Shown here one piece after another: positions 13,414-29,951 of a stretch of DNA of 60,016 nucleotides (position 1 is the first letter of the stretch; every line of letters begins with the position of its first letter). The DNA is from Thermoplasmata archaeon. Lineage in GTDB: Archaea; Thermoplasmatota; Thermoplasmata; Lutacidiplasmatales; UBA184. The notes beneath the pieces are model-generated. The model had not been told where the DNA came from. It worked only from the letters and a program-made list of their open reading frames with translations, and did not search any database. The stretch is taken from NCBI GenBank assembly GCA_027315455.1, contig DAHUXZ010000010.1, forward strand, positions 1 to 60,016, written 5' to 3'. The position numbers and the translations under genes were made by a program.

Positions 13414-13425
13414 GTGTACGTACAC
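13414..13425. promoter_or_regulatory. 12-bp perfect palindrome GTGTACGTACAC upstream of TATA (operator candidate)
   Basis: GTGTACGTACAC lies 5 bp upstream of a TATA-like GGTTATCAA (13429-13437), which in turn is about 30 bp before ATG 13466. The core GTACGTAC recurs in the same place relative to TATA in other respiratory promoters of the window (21105-21118, 21163-21171, 23053-23082). It is probably a transcription-factor site. Confidence 0.65.
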
Positions 13426-13465
13426 TCAGGTTATCAACCGCCCCCCGGTCGACCGACCGTCCTGA

Positions 13466-14521
13466 ATGAGCGCCCCCCGTCGGCCGCCGGTCCCGGCCCG
13501 CAAGGGCCGTCGACTGCCGGCACTCCTGATCGTCCTCGGTCTAGCGCTGTCCGCGCTCGGCGCCCTGATCCCGGCCCTTCCCCCGGCCGATCTCTCGCCC
13601 GGGGCCCGCGCGCTGGCCTCCGGAACGCCGCCGGGCGGGTCGGCCGCGGCGGTGAACCTCACCGTCAATCTGACGGATCTCCCGTCGTTCGACCCGCATT
13701 CCCTCAACGCCCCGGCGGGGGCGGTCGTCCACTTCACGTTCGCGAACGTGGGAGCGTACCCGCACACCTTCACCCTCTCCGACACCCCGAACGTCGTCCT
13801 CGCGGCGAACCTCACGCCCGCGCGCCTCGCGGGGTTCTTCGCTGCGAACGGCTCGTTCGTCAACGTTTCCGTGGCACCGGCGACGACCGAGTTCGTGAAC
13901 TTCTCCGTCCCCTCGGGCGTCGCGGGAGACAGTTTCGAGTTCGTCTCGCTGGTCGCGTACCAGTTCCAGGCCGGGATGTACGGCTTCTTCAACGTCTCCG
14001 GCGCGCCGACCGGCCCGGGGATCACCTCCTCCCTGTCGACGACCGACACCTTCCGTTTCGTCCCCTCGGACCTCGGGGTCGCCCCGACGGGATATCCGGC
14101 GACGATCGACGTCCTCGTGACCAACGACGGCGCCCTTCCCCACACCTTCACCCTCGATTCCGCCTCGAACAACACCCTGAGCCCCGGCTCCTTCACCCAG
14201 TACTTTGCCGCCCATCCCCCGAAGGTCAACGTGAACATCCCGGCGTCCGCCGGCGCGAGCGCATGGGCGAACTTCACCGTCAGTGCCCCGGGGATCTACG
14301 AGTTCATCTGCGAGGTGCCGGGACACTTCGCGAACGGGATGTACGGATTCCTCTACGTGGGGGTCGCGCCCCCGGCCAACGCCACGGCTCCCAGCACGGC
14401 GCTCGTGCAGGCCGGCGTGCTGCTCGGCGCCGGCTCCCTGCTCGGCGTGGGGGTCGTCCTCGCCGCCGCTGCGGCGTACACGGGCCGGTTCCCCCGGTCG
14501 CCCAGCCCTCCGACCCACTGA
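13466..14521 (+). CDS. membrane-anchored tandem cupredoxin (sulfocyanin-like blue copper protein)
   Basis: An extracellular electron carrier candidate. Residues 15-40 form an N-terminal signal/anchor, followed by two cupredoxin domains and a C-terminal membrane helix (about residues 308-335). Domain 2 has a full type-1 copper site: His226 in LPHTFTL, then Cys282-x4-His287-x4-Met292 in CEVPGHFANGM. Domain 1 keeps His100 and Met171, but Ser161 replaces the Cys and Gln166 the second His, so it should not bind type-1 copper. NxS/T sequons are frequent, suggesting a glycosylated surface protein. The promoter has the GTACGTAC palindrome. It probably carries electrons between the Rieske/cytochrome b complex and CuA. 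Confidence 0.88.
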   Translation: MSAPRRPPVPARKGRRLPALLIVLGLALSALGALIPALPPADLSPGARALASGTPPGGSAAAVNLTVNLTDLPSFDPHSLNAPAGAVVHFTFANVGAYPHTFTLSDTPNVVLAANLTPARLAGFFAANGSFVNVSVAPATTEFVNFSVPSGVAGDSFEFVSLVAYQFQAGMYGFFNVSGAPTGPGITSSLSTTDTFRFVPSDLGVAPTGYPATIDVLVTNDGALPHTFTLDSASNNTLSPGSFTQYFAAHPPKVNVNIPASAGASAWANFTVSAPGIYEFICEVPGHFANGMYGFLYVGVAPPANATAPSTALVQAGVLLGAGSLLGVGVVLAAAAAYTGRFPRSPSPPTH

Positions 14522-14634
14522 CGGGTCCCGTCACGGCGTACGGGTCCGCCGGTATCTTCTAGCTGGAGCCGGTACCGGATTTCGCGCGACCGGAGACGGT
14601 GCGGACGCACCGACCCCCTCCCGCCGCATCCACG

Positions 14635-17600
14635 ATGGAAGCTCGGGGCCCGTTCCACGGACCATCCTCGGTGCGGGCCGCATCGTGGGCCGCCCTCTTC
14701 GCGGTCGTGGTCGTCCTCCTCCTGCCCGGACTTCCCGTCGCCCCTGCGGCCGTCGGGCATCCCCCGCCCCGGGTCGGCGGGGCGGGCCGAGCGCCGGCCG
14801 TGCCGGGCGGGGCACCGGCGGGTAGGCTCTCCGGCGTCGACCCGGTCGGCCAGCGCGGGATCGATGTGCCCGCGCTCGCCTTGCGCGAGCTGCGCGCGTG
14901 GCAGGCCGCGAACCCCGTCGAACCGACCGTTACGCCGACGAGCGGAGCAGCCCCCCTCCCCAGGGCGACGGAGCCCCCCCGCCCGCGGGCGGCCGCCTCG
15001 GCCGCGGTGACCGGGCGGGTCTACGACGTCACCTTCGGTCAGCCGATAGCGAACGCGACGGTCTTCCTCACCCCGCTCCTGGGGAGCTGCCAGAACGCGA
15101 CCTGTTCCGTGAACTCGACCCCGACCGCCACGAACGGCAGCTTCACCCTCGGCGCGCCGGCGGCTGCCTATACGCTCGGGTTCGGCGCCCCGCTCTACCT
15201 GGCCAACTCCACCTGGATCACCCTGACCGCGGGCCGCACGCGGAGCGCGGGGATCCTCTTCCTCGTCCATGAGGGGTACGCCGAGGGCGTGGTGGAGGCG
15301 GCGATACCGGGCCACCCCCCGCTCGCCGGCGTGAGCGTCACCTCCCTGTCCCGCGACGGGCAGCTAAAAGGCAACCCGACGGTCGTCACCGCGACGAACG
15401 GGAGCTTCCGGGTCCCGGTGCCGCCCCTCCCCTCGCAGATCAATTTCGACCCTCCGCTTCCGCCGAACGCATCGATCCCGTCGCCGTACCTCCCGAACGA
15501 GACCTACGCGAACGTGACCCCCTACTCCACCGTCGACGTCGGGACCGTCTACCTGGAGGGCGGAGTGGCGGTCAACGCGACCTTCTATGACGAGGGGACC
15601 GGGCGCCCGATCGCCACCGATCTGCCGTCACAGCTGAGCGTCTGCCACCGGTCGCCGTCGTTCTGCCTCGCGCCGTTCCTCGACCACGCGGGCCCCAACG
15701 TGTCGGGGTGGGGGATTCCCGGGGCGGCCTCGGTCGTCGCCTATGCGATCGGCTACGTCGTGAACTCGACCCCCCTGCCCGACCTCCCCGACACGAACGC
15801 GACGGTCGACCTGGGGCGGATCTACCTCGTGCCGATGGGGGCGGCGGAGGTCTCGGCGAACGTCACGGGCGGCGACCCATCCGGAGGGGTCTGGCCGGCC
15901 GGCAACGTGAGCGTGGCGGTCTGCACGCTCAACGGCGAGGAGGTGGCGATCCAGGCCGGACCGGGCGGCCCGATGACGATGGGCGACTGCTGGCCGACCG
16001 GCTCGGCTCCGGGGGTCGCCCTCACGTTCGCGATCGGATCGACGACGTACGCGCCCGGCCCCCCGCTCCACGATGCGGTCATCCTCAACGCCGTCCCGGC
16101 CACGGATTCCCTGCCGCTCGCCTACTCGATGGTCGACCAGTATGCGCCCCGGTTCCCGACCCGCTTCTCGAACCTCACCTGGACGAACCTCACCGCGGGC
16201 GGGGTGACGGTCGTCGGCGCGATCGACCTTCTCCCCGGCACCTATCTTCAGGGCAACGTGTCGATCCCGGGGGTCCGCGGCCCCCTGGCGGGGGACATCG
16301 GCTCCATCTCGGTCTGCGAGGAAGGTAACCCCCTCGTCTGCGCCGACCCCGGGGTCGTCTACGGGCTCGGGGGACCGGTCCCGAGCGGTTGCTTCGCCTC
16401 GAACTCCACGTTCTGCGTGCCCGCGCCCCCCGGTCCGGACCGCGTCACCGTGACGGGATTCGGGGGGCTCGAGTCGAACTGGACCTGGACCGAGGTCCCG
16501 TCGGGCTGTTGCGCGCAGGAGGGCCGGCCGACCGACATCGGCGCGATCCACCTCTCGGCGCTCGGGAAGGGGTGGGGGACCGTGAGCGGGTCGGTCCTCT
16601 CCGCCGCGAGCCGGGCCCCCCTGGGCGGCTTCGCGACCTCGATCTTCGTCTGTCCCGTGGGCCCCCCGCCGGTGGGCCGGTTCGCTCCGTCCTGCCAGTC
16701 CGGGTCGGCCAACGGCACGACGGGGGCGTTCAATCTCACCGCCCCGGTCGGCTGGGACCAGGTCGACGCCTCGGCCCCGGGATACCAGGAGAACTGGACC
16801 TGGGTCGACGTCACCGGGGCCAACACGACCGGTGCCCTCGACCTCACGCCGGATGCCGTGGTCGGAGGGCGGGTGATCACGCCGGACGGCCGCGGGCTCT
16901 ACGGGGCGGTCGTCCAGGCCTGCGAGATGGGGTCGAACGTCAACGGGGCGACGTGTTTTACCCTCGGGACGACGGACACCTTCGGAGAGTACAACGGCAC
17001 CCTCCGGGGCGGACCGCTGCCCTGGGGCAGCTACGAGCTCGTCGCGACGGCCGGCGGGTTCGCCCAGAACTGGACGTGGGTGAACACCACCGTCAACGCG
17101 ATCACCCTCGCCCCGCCGATCACCCTCTGGCCGCTCGGGTTCGGCGGCGGCCCGGCGCGCCCGGCCGCCCCGGGGACGACCTCCGTCGGCGCGTGGGTCT
17201 CGGGACGGCTCGTCGACCACCGCACGGGGTACGGGATCCCGTCCGCGACGGTCGAGGTCTGTGCGATCCTCACGGGAAACTGCGCCCCGGCCGGGTCCAC
17301 CACGTACGGCGGGACGTTCAACGTCTCGATGCAGACCGGCTACTACGATCTTACGTTCACGCCCTTGGGATACGACCCGACGACGATCTTCGTCAACGGC
17401 ACCGTCCCCGTGATCGACCTGGGCGCCGTCCGGGACGTGGCGTACCCGTGGGTCAGCGGCCGGGTCCTCCTCGGACCGTGGACGAACCTGACCGAGGTGG
17501 ACGGAGTCGGGCCGTCGATCTCCTTCTTCGCCTGCACCGGAGCGTACCTGCAGGGGATCTGCGGTCCGCAGACCACGACCGATTCGGGAGGCTACTTCAA

Positions 17601-20391
17601 CGCGAGCGTGCCGGACCCGGGGGGCTACCTCAACGGCTACGGCAACGGGGTCTTCGGCTTCGGCTCGGCGAACGGTGCCTACGCACCGATCGTGCTGGGC
17701 GTCACTGCGAACACCCCCTTCGTCCACCTCCCCACCTACGGAGCCGGAGCGCCGGTCGTCGACCTCTTCGGGGCCGTCGCCGGCACGCTGATGGACGGGA
17801 GCGCGTTCAACGCCAGCCTCAACGCGTCGGTGCGGCCGGCTCCGTTCACGGAGGTGCAGGTCGAGGCCTACGGGACCTCCTTCAACCCGTTCAACGTGAT
17901 GCAGACCGGTGCCGGCGGCAACTACGTCGGGTTCATCCCCTCCGGCGCGGGCGAGACCATCCATGGCTTCGGTGCGACGTACTTCACGGCGGCGCTCTCC
18001 GAGCCGCCGGTCCCCTCGGGCGCGATGCTCAGCGTGCCCCCGATCGATGTGCCCCGCTACGGCTGGGTCACGGCGCACTTCGCGGACAACGTCACGGGCG
18101 CCCCGCTGGCCGGTGTCCCCGTGTCGGTCGCGTACCTGGACGTCGTGAACGCCACCCCGATCGATATGACGGAGACGAGCAACGGGGCGGGCGACGTCAA
18201 CGTGAGCGCCCCGCCGGTGTCCGCGGCGCGCGTCGCCTGGGGCCTCCCGGGGTACCTCAACAACTCGACCTCCGTATCGGTCGGCCAGGCCCGGACGATC
18301 GGCCTCGGCCGCGTCGGGCTCGCGCCGGGCGGCCCGTCGCTCTACGGCTGGGTGCAGAGCGCGTCGCTCGGGGGCGCCGCGGGCCCGCCCGGCGCGACCG
18401 TCGTCGACGCGACGACGCACGCGGCCCTCCCGTCGGCGCGGGTCATCGCCATCCCCCCGTTCGGCCCGTCGACCCCGATGGTCCAGACGAACGGTCTCGG
18501 CCAGTTCCTCCTCTACGCGCCGGCCCAGCCGGGCGTGGGGATCTCCTTCGAGATGCCGGCGTACGATGCCCAGGTCGTCACGCTCAACCTCTCGGCCGGA
18601 GGCCGGACGGTCCTGCCCCGCGTCAACCTGACGGGGAACGGGATCGTCGCCGGCCGCGTGGTCTCCGAGCCCGGGAACCTCTCCGTGGGCGACATCCAGG
18701 TGTCGGTGTGTCCCGCGCAGTCTCCCGGGTGCCCGCAGTTCACCTCCACGAACGGCTCGGGGGTGTTCTGGGTCGCCGCGAGCGCCGGCAGCGATGTCGT
18801 GACCGTGATCTCCGCGCAGTACCTGACCAACGTCACCCGGGGGGTGAACGTCCCCAGCGACGGGTTCGTCTCGGTCGGCGCCATCCCCGTCTACGCCTTC
18901 GGCCAGGTCTCCGGGGTCGTGCGCGGGATCCCCACCGGCTTCGCCGTGCCGCAGGCGAACGTCAGCATCTGCTCGCCGCTCGCGCCCCTCCCGCTGGGAT
19001 GCTTTGTCTCGGTGCGGGTCGGACCCAACGGTTCGTTCACCCTCCCGATCCCGCCGAGCACCTACCTTCTCTACGTCACCGCGCCGTACTTCAACGCCTC
19101 GTTCCGGGAGATCTCGATCTCCCCCGGGGAGCACCTCTCCGTGGGTACGATCTTCCTGGTCTCGTACGGCGTGGTCACCGGCCGCGCCGTCTCGGTCCTC
19201 GGTGGCGCGCCGGTGGCGAACGCGACGGTGATCGTCTGCTCCCTCACGCCCGGGGTCGGCTGCAGCGCGCGCGCCAACGGCTCAGCCGACGGGGCGTTCG
19301 TCGTGGTCGCCCCGCCCGGCCCGGGCGACCTCACCGTCTCCGCCCCGGGGTTCCTCGACAACTTCAGCGCGGTGAGCGTGCCCGCGGGCGGGACCCTCGA
19401 CCTGGGGAGCGTCGACCTCGTCCCGATCGGTCCGGCGGTCCCCGAGACGATCAGCGGCCGCGTGGTGTCGGCCAGCGGCCTCGGCGCCGCGATAACCGGC
19501 GCGGCCGTGACCGCGACGCAGAACGGCGTCAGCGTCGCGAGCGCCTCGACGGACGGGAGCGGGGCGTTCGTCCTGACCGTGTACTATGGAAGCTTCACCC
19601 TCGTCTCCTCGGCGGCGGGATACCGCTCCAACCGGACCGCGTTGGTGGTGCACGCGAACGTGACGGGGCTGACCGTCTCCCTCGCGACGATGACCTACTC
19701 GGTCACCGGCACCGTGACCGATGCCGCGACGCGCTCTCCCCTCGCGGGCGTCGCGATCCGGCACGGCGGTACGCTTTTCGCGCTCAGCGACGCCGGCGGG
19801 CAGTTCGCCTTCGCGGTGGAGAACGGGACCTACGCGCTCGTCGCGAGCGCCACCCCGGCGACCGTCGGGGCGTACGCCCCGCTCGCCTTCTCGGTGACGG
19901 TCAGCGGTGCCTCGCTGGTGCGGGCCATCGCCCTCGTCGCCGCCGCCACGACGGTCTTAGGTTCCGTCGTCGACGCCCGCACCGGCCTTCCGATCGCGGG
20001 CGCCGTCGTAACCGCGACCGGGGCCGCGCTGCCGGGGCCCGACCACCGGGCCTCGGCGACGACCGACGCGCTCGGCGCGTTCCGTCTCCTCCTGCCGTCC
20101 GGGGCCTACACGCTCAACGTCTCCGCCATCGGCTACCGGCCGTTCTCGGAGGGGATCGCGTCGCCGACCGGGGCCGGGGGCCTCGCGCTGGCCCTGTCGC
20201 CCACCGCGGCCGGCCCGTCCGGTCCGTCGCTGACGGTCCCCCTCCTCCTCGGTCTCCTCGCGGGGGGTTTGGTCGCCGGTGCGGTCGTCCTCGTGCTCCG
20301 GCGTCGCCGGCCACCGCCCCCTCCCTCGGCGCCCGCGTGGGCCTACGAGATCGTCGAGCCGACCGCCCCCGAGGAGGGGCCCCCGGTCTAG
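14635..20391 (+). CDS. giant modular surface protein, 1,918 aa, carboxypeptidase-regulatory-like repeats
   Basis: A large secreted, membrane-anchored protein. It has an N-terminal signal/TM segment (about residues 14-38), a Pro/Ala-rich linker, some 17-18 beta-sandwich modules and a C-terminal membrane helix followed by an Arg-rich stop-transfer and a short cytoplasmic tail. Modules follow the pattern V-x-G-x-V-x-D-(4)-G-x-P-(I/L)-x-x-A-x-V ... NGSF ... Y-x-L-x-x-x-A-x-G-(Y/F), the carboxypeptidase regulatory-like (transthyretin-like) fold. Most modules carry a paired Cys motif; the last three (from about 19450) do not. NxS/T sequons abound. ATG 14635 places the hydrophobic signal near the terminus; 14599 is possible. 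It ends tail to tail with coxB, sharing CTAG. It is likely an S-layer-associated or adhesin-like protein; no enzymatic domain was seen. Confidence 0.85.
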   Translation: MEARGPFHGPSSVRAASWAALFAVVVVLLLPGLPVAPAAVGHPPPRVGGAGRAPAVPGGAPAGRLSGVDPVGQRGIDVPALALRELRAWQAANPVEPTVTPTSGAAPLPRATEPPRPRAAASAAVTGRVYDVTFGQPIANATVFLTPLLGSCQNATCSVNSTPTATNGSFTLGAPAAAYTLGFGAPLYLANSTWITLTAGRTRSAGILFLVHEGYAEGVVEAAIPGHPPLAGVSVTSLSRDGQLKGNPTVVTATNGSFRVPVPPLPSQINFDPPLPPNASIPSPYLPNETYANVTPYSTVDVGTVYLEGGVAVNATFYDEGTGRPIATDLPSQLSVCHRSPSFCLAPFLDHAGPNVSGWGIPGAASVVAYAIGYVVNSTPLPDLPDTNATVDLGRIYLVPMGAAEVSANVTGGDPSGGVWPAGNVSVAVCTLNGEEVAIQAGPGGPMTMGDCWPTGSAPGVALTFAIGSTTYAPGPPLHDAVILNAVPATDSLPLAYSMVDQYAPRFPTRFSNLTWTNLTAGGVTVVGAIDLLPGTYLQGNVSIPGVRGPLAGDIGSISVCEEGNPLVCADPGVVYGLGGPVPSGCFASNSTFCVPAPPGPDRVTVTGFGGLESNWTWTEVPSGCCAQEGRPTDIGAIHLSALGKGWGTVSGSVLSAASRAPLGGFATSIFVCPVGPPPVGRFAPSCQSGSANGTTGAFNLTAPVGWDQVDASAPGYQENWTWVDVTGANTTGALDLTPDAVVGGRVITPDGRGLYGAVVQACEMGSNVNGATCFTLGTTDTFGEYNGTLRGGPLPWGSYELVATAGGFAQNWTWVNTTVNAITLAPPITLWPLGFGGGPARPAAPGTTSVGAWVSGRLVDHRTGYGIPSATVEVCAILTGNCAPAGSTTYGGTFNVSMQTGYYDLTFTPLGYDPTTIFVNGTVPVIDLGAVRDVAYPWVSGRVLLGPWTNLTEVDGVGPSISFFACTGAYLQGICGPQTTTDSGGYFNASVPDPGGYLNGYGNGVFGFGSANGAYAPIVLGVTANTPFVHLPTYGAGAPVVDLFGAVAGTLMDGSAFNASLNASVRPAPFTEVQVEAYGTSFNPFNVMQTGAGGNYVGFIPSGAGETIHGFGATYFTAALSEPPVPSGAMLSVPPIDVPRYGWVTAHFADNVTGAPLAGVPVSVAYLDVVNATPIDMTETSNGAGDVNVSAPPVSAARVAWGLPGYLNNSTSVSVGQARTIGLGRVGLAPGGPSLYGWVQSASLGGAAGPPGATVVDATTHAALPSARVIAIPPFGPSTPMVQTNGLGQFLLYAPAQPGVGISFEMPAYDAQVVTLNLSAGGRTVLPRVNLTGNGIVAGRVVSEPGNLSVGDIQVSVCPAQSPGCPQFTSTNGSGVFWVAASAGSDVVTVISAQYLTNVTRGVNVPSDGFVSVGAIPVYAFGQVSGVVRGIPTGFAVPQANVSICSPLAPLPLGCFVSVRVGPNGSFTLPIPPSTYLLYVTAPYFNASFREISISPGEHLSVGTIFLVSYGVVTGRAVSVLGGAPVANATVIVCSLTPGVGCSARANGSADGAFVVVAPPGPGDLTVSAPGFLDNFSAVSVPAGGTLDLGSVDLVPIGPAVPETISGRVVSASGLGAAITGAAVTATQNGVSVASASTDGSGAFVLTVYYGSFTLVSSAAGYRSNRTALVVHANVTGLTVSLATMTYSVTGTVTDAATRSPLAGVAIRHGGTLFALSDAGGQFAFAVENGTYALVASATPATVGAYAPLAFSVTVSGASLVRAIALVAAATTVLGSVVDARTGLPIAGAVVTATGAALPGPDHRASATTDALGAFRLLLPSGAYTLNVSAIGYRPFSEGIASPTGAGGLALALSPTAAGPSGPSLTVPLLLGLLAGGLVAGAVVLVLRRRRPPPPPSAPAWAYEIVEPTAPEEGPPV

Positions 20392-20849
20392 GTCACTTCG
20401 AGGAACGCCCGCATCGTCCCGTGGTACGTCCCGCAGAACTCCGTGCACTGGATGAGGTACTGCGTTCCGGCCGCCACGTTCGGGATGCTGAAGGCGAAGG
20501 TGTTGACCCGGCCCGGGATCGCGTCGATGCGTACGCCGAGGTCGGGGATGTTGAAGGAGTGGACGACATCGGCCGCGGTCACGTTGATCTGGACCGTACT
20601 GCCGGGAGCGGCCCAGAAGGCGCCGCCGCTCACGGAGTTCGTGCTCGCGTCGTAGCTCGTGTTGAAGCAGGTGCCGTTCGCGGGGTAGCAGAACTCCCAG
20701 AACCACTGGTGGCCGATCACGTCGACGTACTCGTCCGGATGCGCGGGGAGGCTGTCGACATGGTAGAGGAGGATCGTGGAGTACGCCGCCACGCCCGTGA
20801 TGAGCGCGACGGTGATCAGCGTCCAGGTCAGCTCGAGCCGGTTAACCAT
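20388..20849 (-). CDS. coxB: heme-copper oxidase subunit II (CuA domain)
   Basis: Electron-entry subunit of the terminal oxidase. It has one N-terminal membrane helix (about residues 7-30) and an external cupredoxin domain of normal size. The binuclear CuA ligand set is complete: a His in DVVHSFNIP, then Cys, Glu, Cys, His and Met in QCTEFCGTYHGTMRAF. The aromatic HQWFWEF patch used for electron entry is also present. The start ATG 20849 overlaps the stop of the upstream small membrane gene by 8 bp, so the two are coupled. It is about 7 kb from coxA and on the opposite strand. Confidence 0.95.
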   Translation of the reverse strand: MVNRLELTWTLITVALITGVAAYSTILLYHVDSLPAHPDEYVDVIGHQWFWEFCYPANGTCFNTSYDASTNSVSGGAFWAAPGSTVQINVTAADVVHSFNIPDLGVRIDAIPGRVNTFAFSIPNVAAGTQYLIQCTEFCGTYHGTMRAFLEVT

Positions 20850-21072
20850 AGCGCCGCCCCCGGGTCGCCGGGTCCCGGAACTTCCACAGGGCGTAGCTCA
20901 GCAGCGCGTAGGTGAGCGCCGCCCCCGCGACCGAGATCACGAGGAGCACCCAGACGACGGGCATCGTCTCCTGGAGGTTGGTCTGGACGGCGAGGGCGCC
21001 CCCGCTCGTCGCGAGTATCCCGAGGAGGCCGGTGACCGCGAGGGTGGCCTGGGCTGCCCGGCGCCGACGCAC
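20842..21072 (-). CDS. small two-helix membrane protein upstream of coxB (candidate oxidase subunit)
   Basis: A 76-residue product with two membrane helices (about residues 9-28 and 36-58) and a basic C-terminus; no family recognised. The frame is open much further upstream, but the TATA box at 21095-21100 predicts transcription starting at about 21070. GTG 21072 is therefore chosen as a leaderless start. The stop lies inside the coxB start (ATGGTTAA), giving strict translational coupling. The position suggests a small structural or assembly subunit of the oxidase, possibly replacing the second N-terminal helix that the short CoxB lacks; that is inference. Confidence 0.72.
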   Translation of the reverse strand: MRRRRAAQATLAVTGLLGILATSGGALAVQTNLQETMPVVWVLLVISVAGAALTYALLSYALWKFRDPATRGRRYG

Positions 21073-21094
21073 GACCGGTCGGAGGAGCCGGTGG

Positions 21095-21100
21095 ATATAT
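21095..21100 (-). promoter_or_regulatory. TATA box of the small-subunit/coxB operon
   Basis: Minus-strand AATATATCC, with its centre 25 bp upstream of GTG 21072, indicating a leaderless transcript. It lies 4 bp from the palindrome at 21105-21118. Confidence 0.75.
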
Positions 21101-21104
21101 TCCC

Positions 21105-21118
21105 CGCGTACGTACGCG
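21105..21118. promoter_or_regulatory. 14-bp perfect palindrome CGCGTACGTACGCG (operator candidate)
   Basis: Perfect dyad centred on GTACGTAC, directly upstream of the coxB-operon TATA box, where factor B or an activator would contact. It is in the divergent spacer between the coxB operon and the second cupredoxin gene. It shares its core with the sites at 13414 and 23053. Confidence 0.68.
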
Positions 21119-21162
21119 CAACCCGGGTGCCCCCGGGTGGCGGGCGTCCCCGGCGGGGGCGA

Positions 21163-21171
21163 ATACGTACG
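21163..21171. promoter_or_regulatory. imperfect ATACGTACG site upstream of the second cupredoxin gene
   Basis: A one-mismatch version of the GTACGTAC core, about 5 bp before a weak TATA-like CCCTTTGAA (21176-21184), followed by a half-site CCGTAC at 21185-21190. It probably belongs to the same regulon as the perfect palindromes. Confidence 0.5.
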
Positions 21172-21235
21172 GAAGCCCTTTGAACCGTACCCCCGTCCGG
21201 GGCCCGGCGCGCTCTCGCCGCCCGGTGAGTTTCGA

Positions 21236-21898
21236 ATGGTCCGTCGTCCGCTGCGTGCGTTCCTGGCTATCGCGGTCCTCGCCGTCGTCGTGATCGTCGC
21301 CGCCGGACGGCCCGCCATCGCCCAGCCGCCCGCCGCCGCGTCCGCCCACGCGACGGAGACCCTCGGCGTCACCGTCGGGACGGCGTTCGCCTTTACCGTG
21401 TCGACCAACGAGGTCACGCCGGGCGATACCGTCACGGTCCAGATCACCCAGACCGACGACGTCGAGCACACGTTCACCCTTTCCTCCGTGGCGAACTACA
21501 CGATCCCGAGCTCCGACTCCTCGGACCAGCTCACCGCCTTCTTCGCGCAGCATCCCCCCCTCGTCAACGTCACGATCCCCTCCGGCCAGGCGACGCTGAC
21601 GGCCTCCTTCACCGCCCCGCCGCTCGGCGTCTACGAGTACGTCTGCCTGATCCCCGGCCACTTCCAGGCCGGGATGAGCGGCCTCCTGGGCTCCGGCGTG
21701 CTCCCCGCGGGGTCGACGGCGCCGACGACGGGACCCGGCTGGCAGGTCTTCGCGATCGGCGGGACGGTCGCCTCCCTCGTCATCCTGGCCCTCGTCCTCG
21801 GCTTCGTGGTCGGCCGGCGGCGGGGCGCCGTCCACGAGATGCCCCCCGAGCGCTTGGGCTACCCCGAGCCCGCTCCCCCGACGCCTCCGGCGAAGTAG
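21236..21898 (+). CDS. membrane-anchored single-domain cupredoxin
   Basis: Blue copper protein with a signal/anchor helix (about residues 6-26), one cupredoxin domain and a C-terminal membrane helix (about residues 178-200). The type-1 site is complete: His78 in VEHTFTL, then Cys137-x4-His142-x4-Met147 in CLIPGHFQAGM. The domain closely resembles domain 2 of the 13466 protein, so the two are paralogues. ATG 21236 gives a good signal peptide; the longer frame is promoter DNA. It is divergent from the coxB operon and just upstream of the AbrB-PhoU regulator. The likely role is electron transfer to CuA; a copper-storage role cannot be excluded. Confidence 0.88.
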   Translation: MVRRPLRAFLAIAVLAVVVIVAAGRPAIAQPPAAASAHATETLGVTVGTAFAFTVSTNEVTPGDTVTVQITQTDDVEHTFTLSSVANYTIPSSDSSDQLTAFFAQHPPLVNVTIPSGQATLTASFTAPPLGVYEYVCLIPGHFQAGMSGLLGSGVLPAGSTAPTTGPGWQVFAIGGTVASLVILALVLGFVVGRRRGAVHEMPPERLGYPEPAPPTPPAK

Positions 21899-21952
21899 GC
21901 CGCCGGGCGCGCGGCCGCGGCCGCAACGTCTAAGAAGGGCCCCTCGTTCCAA

Positions 21953-21976
21953 CCTACGAACCTTGTAGGAGGTTCG
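21953..21976 (+). promoter_or_regulatory. inverted repeats overlapping the ribosome-binding site of the AbrB-PhoU gene
   Basis: Two overlapping dyads occur here: CCTAC/GTAGG (21953-21957 and 21965-21969) and CGAACCT/AGGTTCG (21957-21963 and 21970-21976). AGGAGG at 21967-21972, 9 bp before GTG 21982, lies in the right-hand part, so the second hairpin would hide it. A weak TATA (TCTAAGAAG) is near 21930-21938. Either an operator or an RNA switch is possible. Confidence 0.5.
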
Positions 21977-21981
21977 GGGCT

Positions 21982-23028
21982 GTGTCGGTGGCGTGGGGAA
22001 CCCCGAGTCGGGAACGGCGCGTGCTGAAGGCGGGCCACTCGTCGATCGCGGTCACGCTGCCGAAACCCTGGGCCGAGGCGATGAACCTACGGCCCGGGGA
22101 CCTCATCGTCTTCGACCAGAACGATGACGGCACGCTCTACCTCAAGCCCGCCCCCACGCCGGGGACGACGGTGTCGATCGCGCCGTACCTCGTCCAGGCG
22201 CGGTCGTTCGACACCCCGGGACTCCTCGAGCGACTGGTCGTCGGGGCCTACCGCGTCGGGCACGACGCGATCGAGATCCGCACCGAGGAGCCGCTCGCCC
22301 CGGAACGCGCCGAGGAGCTGCTCCAGGCCGCGCGGGGTCTCCTGGGCGTCTCGGTGGTCGCTCAGGAGCCGACCCGGGTCGTCCTCCAGAACTTCATCGA
22401 CCCGTCGAAGTACGGGCTCCCGCAGCTCGTCCAGCGCATGAAGATGATCCTGGTCGCCTTCCTCGAGGAGTCGGAGGCGGTGCTCACCGACCGGGCGCGC
22501 TCCCGCCGGCTGACCGGACTCACCGAGGAATCGAAGAAGGTCCTCGCGCTCCTCGTCCGGCAGCTGTTCCTGGCGAGCCGCGACTGGTCGCTCGCGCGGC
22601 GCATCGGCAGCCCGGACCCCCGCCAGCTCCTCGAGTGGAGGGTCGTGGTCCAGGCGCTGGAGGACCTCGGGGGCCTCCTCGCGGAGATCGCGGGGGAGCT
22701 CAATCGCGAGCCGGCGACGCTTAGGGAGGCCCGCGAGGTGCTCGGTCCGGTCCTCGGGGAGCTCAAGGAGCAGCTCAAGGCGGTCGTGGAGACCCTCATG
22801 CGCCCCTCGCTCGCCGCCTCCTGCGAGAGCCACGCGGACCTCGCGCGCCTCGTGGACACCGCGCGGGGCGCCCCTCGGCGCCTCAAGGGCCCGGCCCGGC
22901 GCAACGGGGCGCTCGCCGCCGCGGTCGCGCTGCAGCGGGCCTCGGTCTGCCTCGCCGGGCTCGGCGAGGTCGCCCTCGACCGCGCCGTCGCCGCCGGCAA
23001 CGAGACGATCCTCCTCGCGGTTCCGTGA
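21982..23028 (+). CDS. AbrB/SpoVT domain + PhoU domain regulator
   Basis: Archaeal PhoU-type regulator. Residues about 12-60 form a SpoVT-AbrB swapped-hairpin DNA-binding domain (RRVLKAGHSSIAVTLPKPWAEAMNLRPGD). A long all-helical part with PhoU-like helices follows (about residues 120-345), where PhoU domains bind metal clusters or partner proteins. The GTG start at 21982 has a strong AGGAGG 9 bp upstream. It sits between the cupredoxin and tat genes, inside the respiratory region, and no phosphate-transport genes are near. Control of the adjacent respiratory and copper genes is therefore a reasonable but unproven idea. Confidence 0.85.
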   Translation: MSVAWGTPSRERRVLKAGHSSIAVTLPKPWAEAMNLRPGDLIVFDQNDDGTLYLKPAPTPGTTVSIAPYLVQARSFDTPGLLERLVVGAYRVGHDAIEIRTEEPLAPERAEELLQAARGLLGVSVVAQEPTRVVLQNFIDPSKYGLPQLVQRMKMILVAFLEESEAVLTDRARSRRLTGLTEESKKVLALLVRQLFLASRDWSLARRIGSPDPRQLLEWRVVVQALEDLGGLLAEIAGELNREPATLREAREVLGPVLGELKEQLKAVVETLMRPSLAASCESHADLARLVDTARGAPRRLKGPARRNGALAAAVALQRASVCLAGLGEVALDRAVAAGNETILLAVP

Positions 23029-23052
23029 CCCTTCTTATACTTCGAGTATGAA

Positions 23053-23064
23053 CCGTACGTACGG
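23053..23064. promoter_or_regulatory. 12-bp perfect palindrome CCGTACGTACGG upstream of tatA
   Basis: Contains the GTACGTAC core. It follows a possible upstream TATA (TTATAC, 23035-23040) and a small ATACT/AGTAT hairpin (23037-23049). A second CGTACG (23077-23082) lies just before the CATATC box used for tatA. Confidence 0.65.
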
Positions 23065-23076
23065 GTAGAACCGCCC

Positions 23077-23094
23077 CGTACGAACCCCATATCG
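23077..23094 (+). promoter_or_regulatory. CGTACG half-palindrome and TATA (CCATATCG) of tatA
   Basis: CGTACG at 23077-23082, then CCATATCG (23087-23094) about 33 bp before ATG 23124. The spacing repeats the palindrome-then-TATA order seen at 13414 and 21105. Confidence 0.55.
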
Positions 23095-23123: not shown

Positions 23124-23324
23124 ATGTTCGATTCCCTGGACGACTGGTTGATCATCGCGATCGTCGTGGCGGTCCTGTTCTACGGATCGACCAAGATCCC
23201 GCAGCTGGCCCATGCGCTCGGCCGCTCCCTCGGCGAGTTCAAGAAGGGTCGGGCCGAGGTCGAGCGCGAGATCCGGGCCGAGCAGGCGGCGGCCCCGCCC
23301 CCGGCGGCGACGACCCCCCGCTGA
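23124..23324 (+). CDS. tatA: TatA-family twin-arginine translocase subunit
   Basis: Pore-forming component of the Tat pathway, which exports folded proteins such as Rieske. The 66-residue product has a short N-terminal membrane helix (about residues 7-22), the FYGSTKIPQLAHALGRSLGEFKKG hinge/amphipathic-helix region (described here by position 19-42) and an Ala/Pro-rich tail. ATG 23124 is preferred over GTG 23106 because it puts the membrane helix at the very N-terminus. It leads the operon that continues with tatC and the respiratory genes. Confidence 0.92.
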   Translation: MFDSLDDWLIIAIVVAVLFYGSTKIPQLAHALGRSLGEFKKGRAEVEREIRAEQAAAPPPAATTPR

Positions 23325-23419
23325 TCGCGCGAACTCCGTTCACGATGCCCGCAGACCCCTTCGGTCCAGGCCCGCGTTCCGCCCGCCGCCAGCGGCAGGA
23401 GGATCGGGCCGGGTGACCG

Positions 23420-24241
23420 ATGGGCGATCTCGATCGGATCCTGGGCATCCTGGGGGAAGCGCGCCGCCGCCTCTTCCGCCTCGCGGTGGTCCTCGGCCCC
23501 TTGTTCGGATTCCTCGTGACGTTCCGCCTGCAGCCGGTCGCGGTCGCCGTGGGCCCGCTCTCCGTGCCCCTGGCCTACCCGGTCCCGAACCTCTTCGACA
23601 ACGTGACGGCCCAGGTCTTCCGGGCCCTCGCGGCCTTCATGCTCCCGAGCAATGCGGTGCTCCTCAACGTCGGGGTCGGCGACTCGGTCGTCGTGCAGAT
23701 GGAGATCGGCCTGCTGTTGACCCTCATCCTCGGCATGCCGTGGATCATCCACGAGGTCGGGGCGTTCCTCGTTCCGGCGCTGCGCCGCAACGAGCGCGAG
23801 CTCCTGCGGCGGGTCGGCATCCCGGCCACGGTGCTGTTCACCGTCGGGACCCTCCTCGGGCTCCTGTTCATCACGCCGCTCACGTTCCGCCTTCTCTTCC
23901 AGTACATCGCGGCGCTGGGCCTGGCCCCGGTGATCGGGGTCCAGCAGTTCGTGACGTTCGCGCTGCTCTACACGCTCGCCTTCGGCGTCGTCTTCGAGCT
24001 GCCGGTCTTCGTCTACACCCTCACCCGCCTCGGGATCGTCCGGGCCGAGGTCTGGCGCCGCCACTGGCGGATCGCGGTGATCGGGTCCCTCGTCTTCGGG
24101 ATGATCATCACCCCGGACAACTCCGGCATCACCATGCTGCTCATCGCGCTGCCGATGATCGCGCTCTACCTGGGGGGCGCCTGGTTCGCCGAGCGCTGGG
24201 AGACGACGCGGCTGCGGCGGCCCCGGGTCGTGGGGGGGTGA
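23420..24241 (+). CDS. tatC: Sec-independent translocase TatC
   Basis: Receptor subunit of the Tat translocase, which recognises twin-arginine signals. The 273-residue polytopic protein has about six membrane helices and conserved TatC features. These include a hydrophobic segment with GMPWIIHEVGAFLVPAL (PW-x-x-xE-type motif), RRNERELLRR in the following cytoplasmic loop, and TPLTFRLLFQY and FELPVFVYTLTRLGI toward the end. The family length is 240-280. It lies 95 bp after tatA, with a purine-rich GGCAGGAGG upstream, and is followed within a few bases by a TatA/B-like gene. Confidence 0.94.
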   Translation: MGDLDRILGILGEARRRLFRLAVVLGPLFGFLVTFRLQPVAVAVGPLSVPLAYPVPNLFDNVTAQVFRALAAFMLPSNAVLLNVGVGDSVVVQMEIGLLLTLILGMPWIIHEVGAFLVPALRRNERELLRRVGIPATVLFTVGTLLGLLFITPLTFRLLFQYIAALGLAPVIGVQQFVTFALLYTLAFGVVFELPVFVYTLTRLGIVRAEVWRRHWRIAVIGSLVFGMIITPDNSGITMLLIALPMIALYLGGAWFAERWETTRLRRPRVVGG

Positions 24242-24274
24242 GGTAGGACGGCGCTCTTCTCCGACATCGACTGG

Positions 24275-24649
24275 ATGATCCTCCTCGCGGCCGGCGCCTT
24301 CCTCCTCCTCGGCAAGGAGAACACCGCGGTCCTGCGCTCGCTCGGACGCTACTACGGCCGCTTCCTCCGGCTCAAGAACGAGCTGATGAGCGAGGTCTCG
24401 CGCGCCGTCGATCTGCCCCGCGCCCCCGCCGGGTCGCCGCCGCTGACCCTGCGCCAGTCGATCCTCGGCTGGGAGAGCGAGGTCGCCCGCACCTCCTCCG
24501 GCGTCCCCGCCGCGGTCGCGACGCCCGCGCTCCCGCCGGTCGCCATCGCCCGGCCGTTCGGCGAGGCGACGACGACCGCGCCCGGGGTCGGCCCGTACAC
24601 CTGGTCGATGTCCCTCACCACTGCGGCCACGGAGGCTCGAGAGCCATGA
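24275..24649 (+). CDS. TatA/TatB-like protein (possible ACG start at 24248)
   Basis: The N-terminal membrane helix DWMILLAAGAFLLLGKEN, followed by an amphipathic LRSLGRYYGRFLRLKNE stretch, parallels TatA at 23124 (DWLIIAIVVAVLFYG ... LGRSLGEFKKG). The remaining 75 residues are Ala/Pro/Thr rich. ATG 24275 is the only standard start, but it removes the conserved FSDID lead-in that is still in frame upstream. ACG 24248 would restore it, and GGTGAGG (24237-24243) is correctly spaced for 24248, not for 24275. It would act with TatC, either as TatB or as a second TatA. The stop overlaps the next ATG. Confidence 0.68.
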   Translation: MILLAAGAFLLLGKENTAVLRSLGRYYGRFLRLKNELMSEVSRAVDLPRAPAGSPPLTLRQSILGWESEVARTSSGVPAAVATPALPPVAIARPFGEATTTAPGVGPYTWSMSLTTAATEAREP

Positions 24650-24834
24650 GCGCGCTGTCGCTGGACCAGGAGCTGACCCTCGTCGAGATGCTCGTCCTGC
24701 TCCTCGGGATCGCCATCACGTGGGCGGTCTACTACGGGAGCGAGCGCGCCGAGCTCCCGGGCGAGGCCCGTATCCCCGACGGGTCGGTGCCGGACGACCT
24801 CGTCATCGACACCCACGGGAGGACCCTGCGATGA
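24646..24834 (+). CDS. small single-helix membrane protein, 62 aa
   Basis: One membrane helix (about residues 12-30), then an acidic, Pro-containing hydrophilic tail. It has four-base ATGA overlaps at both ends, with the TatA/B-like gene before it and the Rieske gene after it, so it is certainly part of the operon and very likely translated. No family recognised. Given its place, it may be a small subunit or assembly factor of the Rieske/cytochrome b complex. Confidence 0.7.
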   Translation: MSALSLDQELTLVEMLVLLLGIAITWAVYYGSERAELPGEARIPDGSVPDDLVIDTHGRTLR

Positions 24835-25637
24835 ACCCGAGCTGCCCGTCCACCTGCCAGTACGCGGCGGGCGCGCGCAGCGTGGCGGACTGGCCCGTCG
24901 GCCAGGTCCGGCGCGTGGCGGCGACGGGCCCGGACGGGGAGGTCGACGAGACCAAGCGCAACGTCCTCAAGCTCGCGGCCGTCGCGGGACTGCTCGGCAT
25001 GGGCGGGGCCGGCCTCGCCGCGGGAGCGATCCAGTACGCCCAGCCCCCCCAGATCGGCATCTCGAGCTACCCGAGCGTCCAGCTCCTCGACCTCGATGGT
25101 TCGCCCCTCACGGTCACCCGCGTCCTGAAGGAGTACAGCTTCGAGACCAGCGACGTGCTGACGTTCGCCTATCCGCTCCGGAACGAGCCGAACTTCCTGC
25201 TCAATCTGGCCCCCTCCCCGGGCGGTAGCGGGGGGGCGACCAACGTCGTCGGCGGGGTCGGGCCGCAGAAGTCGATCGTCGCGTTCAGCGCGATCTGCCA
25301 GCACCTGGGCTGCCCCGCGCCGGCGATCGCGTACTATCCCCCCGGCACCTGCCCCCAGACCCCCGGCGGGAAGTCCTTCTACATCCACTGCAGCTGCCAC
25401 GGCTCGACCTACGACGTGACGAACGGCGCCGCGAACCTCACCGGCCCCGCGGTCCTCCCGCTGCCTCAGGTCACCCTCGATTGGCACTCGAGCGACGACA
25501 CGATCTGGGCCGTCGGGGAGGTCGGCCCCCCCGTGAACGGCCACCTCGACACCCTGACGGGCGACTACCCCGTCGGCACCAGCGTCCAGCTGACGAAGCA
25601 GTCGCCGATCGTGCTCTGCAACTTCTCCTCGGGGTGA
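24831..25637 (+). CDS. Rieske [2Fe-2S] protein
   Basis: High-potential iron-sulfur subunit of a cytochrome bc1/b6f-like complex. After about 40 hydrophilic residues comes TKRNVLKLAAVAGLLGMGG, a Tat-like signal anchor with KR instead of RR. The cluster motifs are complete: Cys156-x-His158 in CQHLGC and Cys187/His190 in CSCHGS, with Cys161 and Cys189 placed for the usual disulfide. The 268-residue length is typical for an archaeal Rieske protein with a long insertion. ATG 24831 overlaps the previous stop (ATGA), and cytochrome b begins 2 bp after its stop. The neighbouring tat genes fit its export as a folded protein. Confidence 0.95.
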   Translation: MNPSCPSTCQYAAGARSVADWPVGQVRRVAATGPDGEVDETKRNVLKLAAVAGLLGMGGAGLAAGAIQYAQPPQIGISSYPSVQLLDLDGSPLTVTRVLKEYSFETSDVLTFAYPLRNEPNFLLNLAPSPGGSGGATNVVGGVGPQKSIVAFSAICQHLGCPAPAIAYYPPGTCPQTPGGKSFYIHCSCHGSTYDVTNGAANLTGPAVLPLPQVTLDWHSSDDTIWAVGEVGPPVNGHLDTLTGDYPVGTSVQLTKQSPIVLCNFSSG

Positions 25638-25639
25638 CG

Positions 25640-26998
25640 ATGGGGTTCGAGCGCTGGTTCAACCGGGTCCTCAACCGTACCTGGGGGTTCGTCGAGGACC
25701 GCACCGCGATGCCCCACTGGGCGCTACGGCCCCAGCCGGAGTTCAGCTTCAAGCCGAGCTACTGGACCGGAGCGTTCGTCGTGAACGCCTTCCTCTACCA
25801 GGTGATCTCGGGGCTGCTCCTGCTCTTGTACTACCAGCCGAGCACCAGCGCGACCCTGACCGCCTGCGGCCAGCCGTCCGGCACGCTCTCGAGCGCCCCG
25901 GCCGCCTGGTGCAGCACCTACTACGTGATCCACTCGGTCCCGATGGGCTCGCTCCTCCTCTCGAGCCACCTCTACGGGGCCTACGCGATGATCTTCCTCG
26001 CCCTCGTGCACTTCTACCGGGGCTACTACCTCGGCGTCTTCAAGCGGCCGCGGGAGTTCTCCTGGATGGCGGGGTCGCTCCTGCTCCTCCTCACCCTCGG
26101 CATGGGGTTCACGGGCTACCTCCTGCCCTGGACCCAGCTCTCCTACAACGCGACCAGTGTCGGCCTCGTCCTCGCGTTACGGCTTCCCTACGCCGGCCCG
26201 CTCCTCGGACCGTTCATCCTCGCCGACGGGACGAGCCAGGGGCTGCTGTCGCGGATGTTCGCGGCCCACGTCCTCTTGATCCCGCTCGCGCTCGGCGCGC
26301 TCCTGTACGCCCACATCGCGCTGTTCGAGTCCCACGGCATCGCCCCCCCGGCGTCCTCCGACCCGCTGCAGCGGCGGCGGTTCACGCACGAGGAGGACAA
26401 GAAGCACGTGCCGTTCATGCCCCACATCTTCTTCTACATCACGAAGTGGGCGCTCCTCTACATCGGTCTCATCCTCGGGATCGCCGCCCTCTGGCCCTGG
26501 GAGCTGCCGACCTACGTCGGGAACCTCGCGGCCGTGCAGACGGTCACCGAGCCCGACTGGTACTTCCTCTGGGAGTTCAAGCTCGTCGATTTCGTCGGGG
26601 TCACCCCGGTCATCGCCGTCGGGGTGACGACGGCGATCCTCCTGTTCATCCTGTTCGTGCCGTTCCTCGACCGCTCCCGGCCGACGCACCCGCGCGACCG
26701 GCCGTTCTTCCTCTTCCTGGGCAACTCGCTGCTCTCCTTCTTCGTCTTCATGACGGTCTGGGGCGGGCTGACCCCGGGCGTGCAGATCCCGCTCAGCGCG
26801 GTGATCGAACGCCTCGCGCCGATCTTCATCGTGAACGCGGTCGTCGTCTGGGTGTTCTACCGGCGCTACCGGCAGTCGTACACCGCCCGCCTGGCCGCCG
26901 CCGGCACCTCCGGGCGCCTCGAGGGGGCGTACCCGCTTCCCGCGCCCCGCCCCACGACCGCCGGCGCCTCCGTCCCGGAGGTGGCCGGCCGTGACTGA
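25640..26998 (+). CDS. cytochrome b of a bc-type complex
   Basis: Quinol-oxidising di-heme cytochrome b with N- and C-terminal domains in one 452-residue chain. Four heme-ligand His are visible in two helices: SSHLYGAYAM...VHFYRGYY, with 13 residues between ligands, and AAHVLLIPL...YAHIALF, with 14. The 13/14 spacing resembles b6-type rather than mitochondrial cytochrome b. The Qo motif is PDWY rather than PEWY. About ten membrane helices are present. ATG 25640 follows the Rieske stop by 2 bp. No cytochrome c1 or f gene accompanies it. It probably forms a supercomplex with the oxidase encoded downstream. Confidence 0.94.
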   Translation: MGFERWFNRVLNRTWGFVEDRTAMPHWALRPQPEFSFKPSYWTGAFVVNAFLYQVISGLLLLLYYQPSTSATLTACGQPSGTLSSAPAAWCSTYYVIHSVPMGSLLLSSHLYGAYAMIFLALVHFYRGYYLGVFKRPREFSWMAGSLLLLLTLGMGFTGYLLPWTQLSYNATSVGLVLALRLPYAGPLLGPFILADGTSQGLLSRMFAAHVLLIPLALGALLYAHIALFESHGIAPPASSDPLQRRRFTHEEDKKHVPFMPHIFFYITKWALLYIGLILGIAALWPWELPTYVGNLAAVQTVTEPDWYFLWEFKLVDFVGVTPVIAVGVTTAILLFILFVPFLDRSRPTHPRDRPFFLFLGNSLLSFFVFMTVWGGLTPGVQIPLSAVIERLAPIFIVNAVVVWVFYRRYRQSYTARLAAAGTSGRLEGAYPLPAPRPTTAGASVPEVAGRD

Positions 26999-27257
26999 GC
27001 CGCCCGTCGTGCGCTACCGGACCGGGGCGCTCTGGGTGCTCCTCGCGATCCTCCTGGTCTTCGGCACCGTGGCCGCCGCGACGTTCGTCTACGGACTTAC
27101 GGACCTCTACGCGACCCGACGGCTCTGGCCCGACGTCCCGGTCCTGGTCGGCGGGGCGTTCGGCGCGACGTTCTTCCTGCTCCTGATCACGGGGATCCTC
27201 TACCGCGTCGACCGCGTGCGCGGGGTCCCCCACCGGAGGATCGAGCTCTTTGACTGA
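26991..27257 (+). CDS. small two-helix membrane protein, 88 aa
   Basis: Two membrane helices (about residues 12-34 and 50-70) flanked by charged ends; no family recognised. GTG 26991 overlaps the cytochrome b stop by 8 bp, and its own stop overlaps the next start. The conserved operon position between cytochrome b and coxA suggests a structural subunit of the oxidase or of a supercomplex. Confidence 0.72.
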   Translation: MTEPPVVRYRTGALWVLLAILLVFGTVAAATFVYGLTDLYATRRLWPDVPVLVGGAFGATFFLLLITGILYRVDRVRGVPHRRIELFD

Positions 27258-27621
27258 CGACCTCGCCTCGTCGGAACTCGCCCGCGTCCGGTCCCGGGTG
27301 CTCTCCCTCACCTTCGCCGCGACGGCCCTGATGCTGCTCGGGATCGCCATCCTCGGCCTCTACGTCTACCGGCTCGGCCCGATCGTCGGGCCGGGCGTCG
27401 AGGAGTCCTTCGGGTTCGCGGTCTCGATGATGTTCCTGATGGGCGCGATGCTGATCCACCTGGTCGACCGCGCCTACCGCAGCTGGCCGTTCGGCCGGAG
27501 GTACCGGCCGTCGGCGCCGGGTCCCGTCACCGACGCCGGGCTCGTCGTCGCGCTCGAGGTGCTGGTCCTCGTCGCGGCCGGAGGGGCGATCGCCTACCTC
27601 GTCGCGCTGATGGTGAGCTGA
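27250..27621 (+). CDS. small three-helix membrane protein, 123 aa
   Basis: Three membrane helices (about residues 19-41, 53-72 and 98-121) with a short basic loop [14 protein letters not shown]; no family recognised. TTG 27250 overlaps the previous stop by 8 bp, and coxA starts 13 bp after its stop. By position and size it could stand in for a subunit III/IV-like component of the oxidase. I see no direct homology to CoxC. Confidence 0.7.
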
Positions 27622-27634
27622 GGAGTACGGACCG

Positions 27635-29308: not shown

Positions 29309-29316
29309 GGGGGACG

Positions 29317-29907: not shown

Positions 29908-29923
29908 GCCCCCCGACGGCGGG

Positions 29924-29930
29924 TTAAGTA
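29924..29930 (+). promoter_or_regulatory. TATA-like box of ctaB
   Basis: TTAAGTA about 25 bp before GTG 29952, predicting a leaderless transcript separate from the coxA-ctaA operon. Confidence 0.6.
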
Positions 29931-29951
29931 GCCCTGACCGCTCGTCCCGGG

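Follow-up and report, generated by a model that had tools for sequence, protein, structure and literature searches.

A probable operator dedicated to the cupredoxin and terminal-oxidase promoters of a single archaeal locus

Why should two cupredoxin genes, the gene of an oxidase subunit II and a tat-Rieske-cytochrome b-coxA operon, scattered over some 10 kb, share a short palindrome in their promoters, and is this sharing more than a coincidence picked out by eye? The question is raised by a window of 60,016 nucleotides (the whole stretch of DNA that was analysed) from the Thermoplasmata archaeon assembly GCA_027315455.1, contig DAHUXZ010000010.1, positions 1 to 60,016, belonging to the uncultivated soil archaea of the Lutacidiplasmatales. 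A preliminary description, made from the sequence alone, had pointed out five such strings and proposed a shared operator for this gene set, placed next to the TFB recognition element in the manner of an activator site. The elements considered here, with their strands, are the following.

13416..13423 (+), operator of cupredoxin 1, GTACGTAC, within the full palindrome GTGTACGTACAC (13414-13425)
13432..13437 (+), TATA-like box TATCAA of cupredoxin 1, 8 nt after the operator and 34 nt before the ATG (assigned from sequence only)
13466..14521 (+), cupredoxin 1, with two plastocyanin/sulfocyanin-like domains (Pfam and NCBIfam matches)
20388..20849 (-), coxB, cytochrome oxidase subunit II (PF00116, E 1.8e-19, and a CoxB model), preceded by a small membrane ORF that probably starts at the GTG at 21072 (a start inferred from the sequence)
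21094..21099 (-), TATA-like box TATATC of the coxB operon, 8 nt after the operator on the minus strand
21108..21115 (-), operator of the coxB operon, GTACGTAC, within the full palindrome CGCGTACGTACGCG (21105-21118)
21163..21170 (+), operator of cupredoxin 2, ATACGTAC (composite match with its box, 21163-21184)
21179..21184 (+), TATA-like box TTTGAA of cupredoxin 2
21236..21898 (+), cupredoxin 2 (weak CopI/rusticyanin matches and no Pfam match, but orthologues in all 10 neighbourhoods compared)
21952..21973 (+), conserved element ACCTACGAACCTTGTAGGAGGT directly before the next gene, a possible autoregulatory operator
21982..23028 (+), AbrB-domain protein with a possible PhoU-like fold (hereafter AbrB-PhoU), candidate regulator
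23046..23053 (+), degenerate third tatA site, GTATGAAC, 32 bp upstream of the proximal site
23055..23062 (+), second tatA site, GTACGTAC, within the full palindrome CCGTACGTACGG (23053-23064), 23 bp upstream of the proximal site
23078..23085 (+), proximal tatA site, GTACGAAC, 3 nt before its box
23089..23093 (+), TATA-like box ATATC of the tat-Rieske-cytb-coxA operon (assigned from sequence only)
23124..30866 (+), tatA, tatC, two small ORFs, Rieske, cytochrome b, two small ORFs, coxA, ctaA and ctaB (UbiA family) (Pfam matches and gene calls)

The first point to settle is whether the observation is real, and it is confirmed: all five strings lie where they had been placed. GTACGTAC occurs exactly three times in the window, against 0.14 expected from dinucleotide shuffles (none of 100 shuffles reached three), and pattern searches of the 1.98-Mb genome found it only four times, the fourth copy (C18:19760) lying inside a coding frame. 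Some details nevertheless had to be corrected. The genes run in two directions and not in three; the string at 21163, taken as a near-match, is the proper operator of cupredoxin 2, 8 nt before TTTGAA; the CGTACG at 23077 is part of the proximal tatA site; and the gap to the TATA-like box, which had been given as about 4-7 bp from the end of the site in four cases, is, when measured from the 8-mer, exactly 8 nt at cupredoxin 1, coxB and cupredoxin 2, and 3 nt at tatA. Moreover, the shorter CGTACG carries no weight by itself, since it is common (697 copies per genome), and the exact 8-mer GTACGTAC is too narrow as a motif, being only one form of a broader operator, RTWCGWAC, as most relatives use GTTCGTAC or GTACGAAC at coxB and ATTCGTAC at cupredoxin 1.

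This broader form emerged from the comparison of 75 loci from related Thermoplasmata MAGs (order Lutacidiplasmatales/UBA184), in which the element is RTWCGWAC, followed after exactly 8 nt by a TATA-like box. It marks cupredoxin 1 in 39 of 47 loci (ATTCGTAC or GTTCGTAC-N8-TATCAA), coxB in 54 of 66 (usually GTTCGTAC-N8-TATGTA) and cupredoxin 2 in 55 of 66 (usually GTACGTAC-N8-TTTGAA in relatives), and the gap is exactly 8 nt in 106 of 113 site-box pairs. The tatA promoter has instead GTACGAAC-N3-ATATC, plus copies 23 and 32 bp upstream, with the spacing of 23 being found in 19 relatives and a GTNCGNAC copy at the spacing of 32 in 43. The density of GTWCGWAC is 8.7 and 3.0 per kb in the two intergenic regions, compared with 0.05 per kb elsewhere in the loci. 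In 12 whole genomes (12 species), all 28 RTWCGTAC-N8-box matches fall at the cupredoxin 1, coxB or cupredoxin 2 promoters (with 1 control match), while 12 of 16 matches of the tatA type are at tatA. Operator and locus, together with the AbrB-PhoU orthologue, co-occur across genera: operator and locus are found together in four genera and are both absent from a sister genus, a sister family and one congener, and in a class-wide search the hits outside the family were at control level. Although related genomes are not independent events, these data address the two outcomes that the preliminary description had named in advance as fatal to its proposal. The first was a motif as frequent in coding DNA or at unrelated promoters, but the composite operator is not found at unrelated promoters, and the bare GTACGTAC copies elsewhere in relatives are mostly isolated and inside coding frames, i.e., chance, so that they were rejected as further members of the regulon. 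The second was a lack of conservation in close relatives, but the operator is conserved upstream of orthologues whose proteins are only about 55-75% identical. The proposed interpretation is therefore supported, although the specific signal (copper or oxygen) and the sign of the regulation still lack support, and the pure coincidence of a short GC-rich palindrome, for which the abundance of CGTACG and the random look of the bare copies could be invoked, is refuted by the conservation at fixed position and spacing in many divergent loci with almost no control matches. Conserved across at least four genera and almost absent from the rest of their genomes, the palindrome is very probably a real and previously undescribed switch for aerobic respiration.

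What kind of element is it, then? A palindromic site directly upstream of BRE/TATA, shared by co-regulated promoters and rare elsewhere, has the sequence features of archaeal upstream-activator operators of the CopR/Tar kind, although binding of a protein and stimulation of transcription were not assayed here. Another possibility is a core-promoter element (an extended BRE) read by a particular TFB or TBP variant without any separate regulator, which would account for the fixed distance to the box and for a location where TFB binds. However, a BRE-type element would be asymmetric and would directly abut the TATA box at many promoters, whereas the 8-mer is dyad-symmetric, is set back by 8 nt, occurs at only four promoters per genome, and appears in several copies and at another spacing at tatA; since a general factor would be expected to have more targets, this reading is considered very unlikely.

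The best explanation, held with somewhat more confidence than doubt, is that the palindrome is the operator of a small, locus-dedicated respiratory regulon. In this view, a dimeric DNA-binding protein would recognise RTWCGWAC (two GTWC half-sites) at a fixed place just upstream of the TFB/TBP site and, because the spacing is rigid and the boxes are poor TATA boxes (TTTGAA, TATGTA, TATCAA), it would most likely help TBP/TFB to bind, i.e., activate cupredoxin 1, coxB and cupredoxin 2. At the tat-Rieske-cytb-coxA promoter, where the different spacing fits simple recruitment less well, the proximal copy at 3 nt and the further copies upstream make cooperative or dual control possible. The analysis itself establishes the element, its rigid spacing, its conservation, its near-exclusive location and the presence of a conserved AbrB-domain protein; that a protein binds there, that it is this one, that it activates, that the AT-rich hexamers are TATA boxes, and that copper, oxygen or redox is the signal are inferences, made without binding, expression or start-site data. 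The opposite sign, with the protein (AbrB-PhoU or another) bound next to the BRE, keeping TFB/TBP off and being released under oxic or copper-replete conditions, is less likely but possible: AbrB-type proteins are often repressors, and at tatA the site lies 3 nt from the box, with further copies upstream, overlapping the expected BRE. Nevertheless, at three promoters the site is set back by 8 nt, leaving the BRE free, and the boxes are weak, which favours recruitment.

Which protein might read the operator? The best candidate, and most likely the regulator, is AbrB-PhoU, encoded between the sites, which is conserved in synteny and is the only recognisable DNA-binding protein conserved in 10 of 10 neighbourhoods. 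Its AbrB-type domain scores above the curated cut-offs (PF04014, E 1.6e-10, 41.2 bits against 24.7; TIGR01439, 28.8 bits against 28.3) and is 95% identical on average, versus 43% for the C-terminal part, although it is modelled with low confidence. No PhoU family matched the C-terminal part in the Pfam and NCBIfam scans, and a sequence search of the PDB with the whole candidate gave nothing significant. The top Foldseek matches of the model are PhoU structures, with probability about 1.00 and target TM-scores of 0.45-0.68, but with E-values from 0.01 to 0.1-0.2, so that a PhoU-like helical fold is suggested without being settled by this comparison. The gene has its own conserved leader element, found within 3 mismatches in 71 of 73 loci and in one copy per genome apart from the duplicated locus and two weak hits, through which the protein probably also controls its own gene. 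An RNA hairpin as the main reading of this leader is not supported (z-scores from -0.17 to -3.8 and two competing pairings). However, the leader element (ACCTACGNNCCTYGTARKAGGT) is not the same sequence as the operator, with which it shares only TACGAAC, and since regulator, operators and targets lie in one locus, their co-occurrence does not prove interaction. It thus remains possible, though unlikely, that the operator belongs to another transcription factor encoded elsewhere (for example, a winged-helix or Lrp-type regulator; the other regulators of these genomes were not surveyed), and that AbrB-PhoU controls only its own gene or something else. Against this speak the confinement of the operator to one locus, which fits a locus-encoded regulator, the lack of any other recognisable DNA-binding protein conserved there, and the AbrB domain being the part of the protein under the strongest constraint.

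If the most far-reaching reading were true, for which the present support is only tentative, an archaeal AbrB-PhoU protein would be a dedicated transcription activator of a whole respiratory branch, binding a short palindrome at a rigid 8-nt distance from weak TATA boxes, controlling its own gene through a second, inverted-repeat element, and sensing redox, copper or another state through its PhoU-like part. That would give archaeal AbrB-PhoU proteins a defined operator and a role in the control of aerobic respiration. In the papers searched, no operator for the control of an archaeal terminal-oxidase/cupredoxin branch turned up; those containing GTACGTAC together with a promoter did not deal with archaeal respiration, and no characterised target was found for archaeal AbrB-PhoU proteins, nor any functional study of archaeal AbrB with PhoU, as far as titles showed. 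Here, both sides of a regulator-operator pair are proposed from sequence, with a spacing rule amenable to a purified archaeal transcription system even though these archaea are uncultivated, and it would show how Lutacidiplasmatales, which live in acidic and often waterlogged soils, may switch their oxygen-reducing chain on.

The gene cluster itself is already known: Sheridan et al. 2022 (PMC9287336) described the complex III/IV locus of Lutacidiplasmatales, with complex IV next to complex III, haem A/O synthesis, Tat and cupredoxin, plus six proteins of unknown function, although their paper does not use the word 'promoter' and, in the parts consulted, describes no regulator or operator. Regarding the element, the ups/UV-inducible promoters of Sulfolobus acidocaldarius (PMC5817253) also carry a short conserved motif at a fixed place upstream of the BRE, essential for promoter activity and conserved between species, but it is a non-palindromic hexanucleotide found at over 200 genes and not linked to one locus. 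Tar (TK0271) of Thermococcus kodakarensis (PMC6737238) offers a precedent for activation from this position, since it activates transcription in vitro from a palindromic site upstream of BRE/TATA of a few operons of one pathway, although its motif, TGGACA-N8-TGTCCA, is unrelated in sequence and the pathway is that of amino acids. A second precedent is the CopR regulon of Pyrococcus furiosus (PMC7830388), in which a semi-palindromic motif lies directly upstream of the BRE and one regulator activates a copper gene (copA) and represses its own (copR), with copper-related targets. CopR, however, belongs to a different protein family (a TRASH-domain copper sensor), with a different motif (TTNNCAWWWTGNNAA) that the conserved 8-bp site does not match, and with a regulon spread over the genome, whereas here the motif is RTWCGWAC, the targets are respiratory and form one locus, and the candidate factor is AbrB-PhoU.

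The strings that the preliminary description had reported are all present at the positions where it had placed them, and the observation holds. GTACGTAC is found three times in the window, where 0.14 copies are expected from dinucleotide shuffles, and only four times in the 1.98-Mb genome, the fourth copy lying inside a coding frame of a surface-protein-like gene. CGTACG alone is common (697 copies), so that the clustering is real for the 8-mer, but meaningless for the 6-mer.

The window belongs to the Lutacidiplasmatales, and the related loci come from Thermoplasmata MAGs, among them Candidatus Lutacidiplasma silvani and UBA184. One of them, locus L191 (DAIDCO010000031.1), is carried by a MAG record titled 'bacterium' in spite of being this archaeal locus, and is probably mislabelled. 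This locus has been described as complex IV next to complex III, haem synthesis, Tat and cupredoxin (Sheridan et al. 2022, PMC9287336), with no mention of a regulator or an operator in the parts consulted. In the window, its elements are the following:
13466-14521, cupredoxin 1 (cup1)
14671-20391, a 1,906-aa protein with at least eight carboxypeptidase-regulatory-like repeats, found between cup1 and coxB here and in a few relatives, but not in most
coxB with a small membrane ORF, on the minus strand
21236-21898, cupredoxin 2 (cup2)
21952-21973, a conserved element, ACCTACGNNCCTYGTARKAGGT, directly before the start codon of the following gene
21982-23028, an AbrB-domain protein (AbrB-PhoU)
then tatA, tatC, Rieske, cytochrome b, coxA, ctaA and ctaB
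30929-31636, a 235-aa protein of unknown function with no Pfam match, conserved in 9 of 10 neighbourhoods just after ctaB

In congeners whose AbrB protein is about 65-75% identical, the divergent region between coxB and cup2 carries two sites, one facing each gene, and the tatA leader carries up to three. The usual forms are GTTCGTAC-N8-TATGTA at coxB, GTACGTAC-N8-TTTGAA at cup2, ATTCGTAC-N8-TATCAA at cup1 (39 of 47 loci) and, at tatA, GTACGAAC-N3-ATATC with further GTNCGNAC copies 23 and 32 bp upstream. When a limited mismatch is allowed, the coxB-side and cup2-side composites are present in 54 and 55 of 66 loci, respectively. The density of GTWCGWAC reaches 8.7/kb and 3.0/kb in the two intergenic regions, against 0.05/kb elsewhere in the loci, and in the coxB/cup2 region there are 100 copies against 1.9 in shuffles. 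Of 113 site-box pairs, 106 have a gap of exactly 8 nt, and the core and box columns approach 2 bits while the flanking columns carry little information. Since the sequences are related, these counts are not independent events; however, the proteins differ at about 30% of residues and the surrounding intergenic DNA is poorly alignable by eye, so the retention of the sites is not mere recency. In addition, at 23034-23053 and in the tatA leaders of the related loci, many relatives have an AT-rich box 8 nt from the distal tatA site but facing the other way (for example, GTACGAAC-N8-TATGAA on the minus strand), which hints at a divergent or antisense promoter into the 3' end of the AbrB-PhoU gene.

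The specificity of the element was examined at the genome level. RTWCGTAC-N8-TWWNNA was sought in 12 whole genomes and gave 28 matches, every one at a cup1, coxB or cup2 promoter, compared with 1 match of the reversed control. GTWCGWAC-N8-TWWNNA gave 39 matches in 20 genomes, most of them in this locus, and 1 in the control, several of the strays being GTTCGAAC singletons. The tatA-type pattern gave 16 matches in 12 genomes, 12 of them at tatA and the other four in or beside unrelated genes. Bare GTACGTAC elsewhere in relatives is mostly coding. An intergenic string, CGGATACGGTACGTACCG, recurs in two species with no predicted gene beside it (loci L111 and L120 of genome G022, and L125 of genome G033). 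The preliminary description had set out in advance two outcomes that would have spoken against it, namely that the motif were as frequent in coding DNA or at unrelated promoters, or that it were not conserved upstream of orthologues in close relatives, and both are answered by these data: its interpretation, a shared site at the cupredoxin, oxidase and tat promoters placed as for an activator, is supported.

Within the class, the composite stands above control only in four genera of the family, designated here g1, g3, g4 and g5. These are the genomes with an AbrB-PhoU orthologue (57-71% identical in those tested) and an orthologous coxB. The sister genus g2, the sister family f2 and one congener (G030) lack both the orthologue and the operator, two of the g2 genomes having only a distant coxB. 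As the regulator gene lies in the locus, what this demonstrates is that operator and locus travel together, whereas an interaction between the two molecules does not follow from it by itself and is an inference. The window's genome also holds a second copy of cup2-AbrB-PhoU-tatA-tatC-Rieske-cytb at a contig end (contig C37, locus L064; AbrB-PhoU 69-71% identical), with its own tatA-type site and leader element, which is either a paralogue or a mis-binned contig.

The candidate regulator is the protein encoded at 21982-23028, which has an AbrB-type DNA-binding domain, a middle alpha/beta part and a helical part whose best structural matches are mostly PhoU proteins, at weak E-values. It is the only recognisable DNA-binding protein conserved across the ten neighbourhoods compared. 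Its AbrB domain averages 95% identity to that of the window, against 81%, 81% and 43% for the three following parts, and a paralogue in the same genome differs widely in that domain. Its own gene carries a different, strongly conserved element right before the start codon, the aforementioned ACCTACGNNCCTYGTARKAGGT, present within 3 mismatches in 71 of 73 loci (it lies before the AbrB-PhoU gene in the loci numbered L170-L243), sometimes with a second copy further upstream, and almost nowhere else in the genome. Some species also have a GTWCGAAC site 33-34 nt before the start. This is what autoregulation would look like, although the two elements share only TACGAAC, which is the main reason not to be more confident, and the element before the gene might be either an autoregulatory operator or a leader structure. 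Altogether, the cis-element is almost certainly real and functional, while the full account, i.e., locus-dedicated activation with AbrB-PhoU as the regulator, is somewhat more likely than not. The doubt concerns the identity of the factor and the sign of the regulation, and the rival explanations on those two points overlap.

With regard to the mechanism, a position directly upstream of BRE/TATA, together with weak boxes and a rigid spacing, is typical of archaeal activators that recruit TBP or TFB. The boxes lie about 27-36 nt before the start codons at cup1, coxB and tatA, and 57 nt at cup2, which is compatible with short or absent leaders, although there were no transcript data with which to confirm the start sites. 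The signal is not known either, copper and oxygen being reasonable from the targets only. There are already examples of this kind of control: CopR from P. furiosus activates copA and represses copR, with a semi-palindrome directly upstream of the BRE (PMC7830388), and Tar from T. kodakarensis activates from a palindrome upstream of BRE/TATA (PMC6737238). Activation of cup1, coxB and cup2, with a more complex control at tatA, is therefore the favoured reading. The upstream palindromic activator site is already known in archaea, and what is notable in the element described here is its near-perfect restriction to one respiratory locus, as well as its offering a proposed target for AbrB-PhoU proteins.
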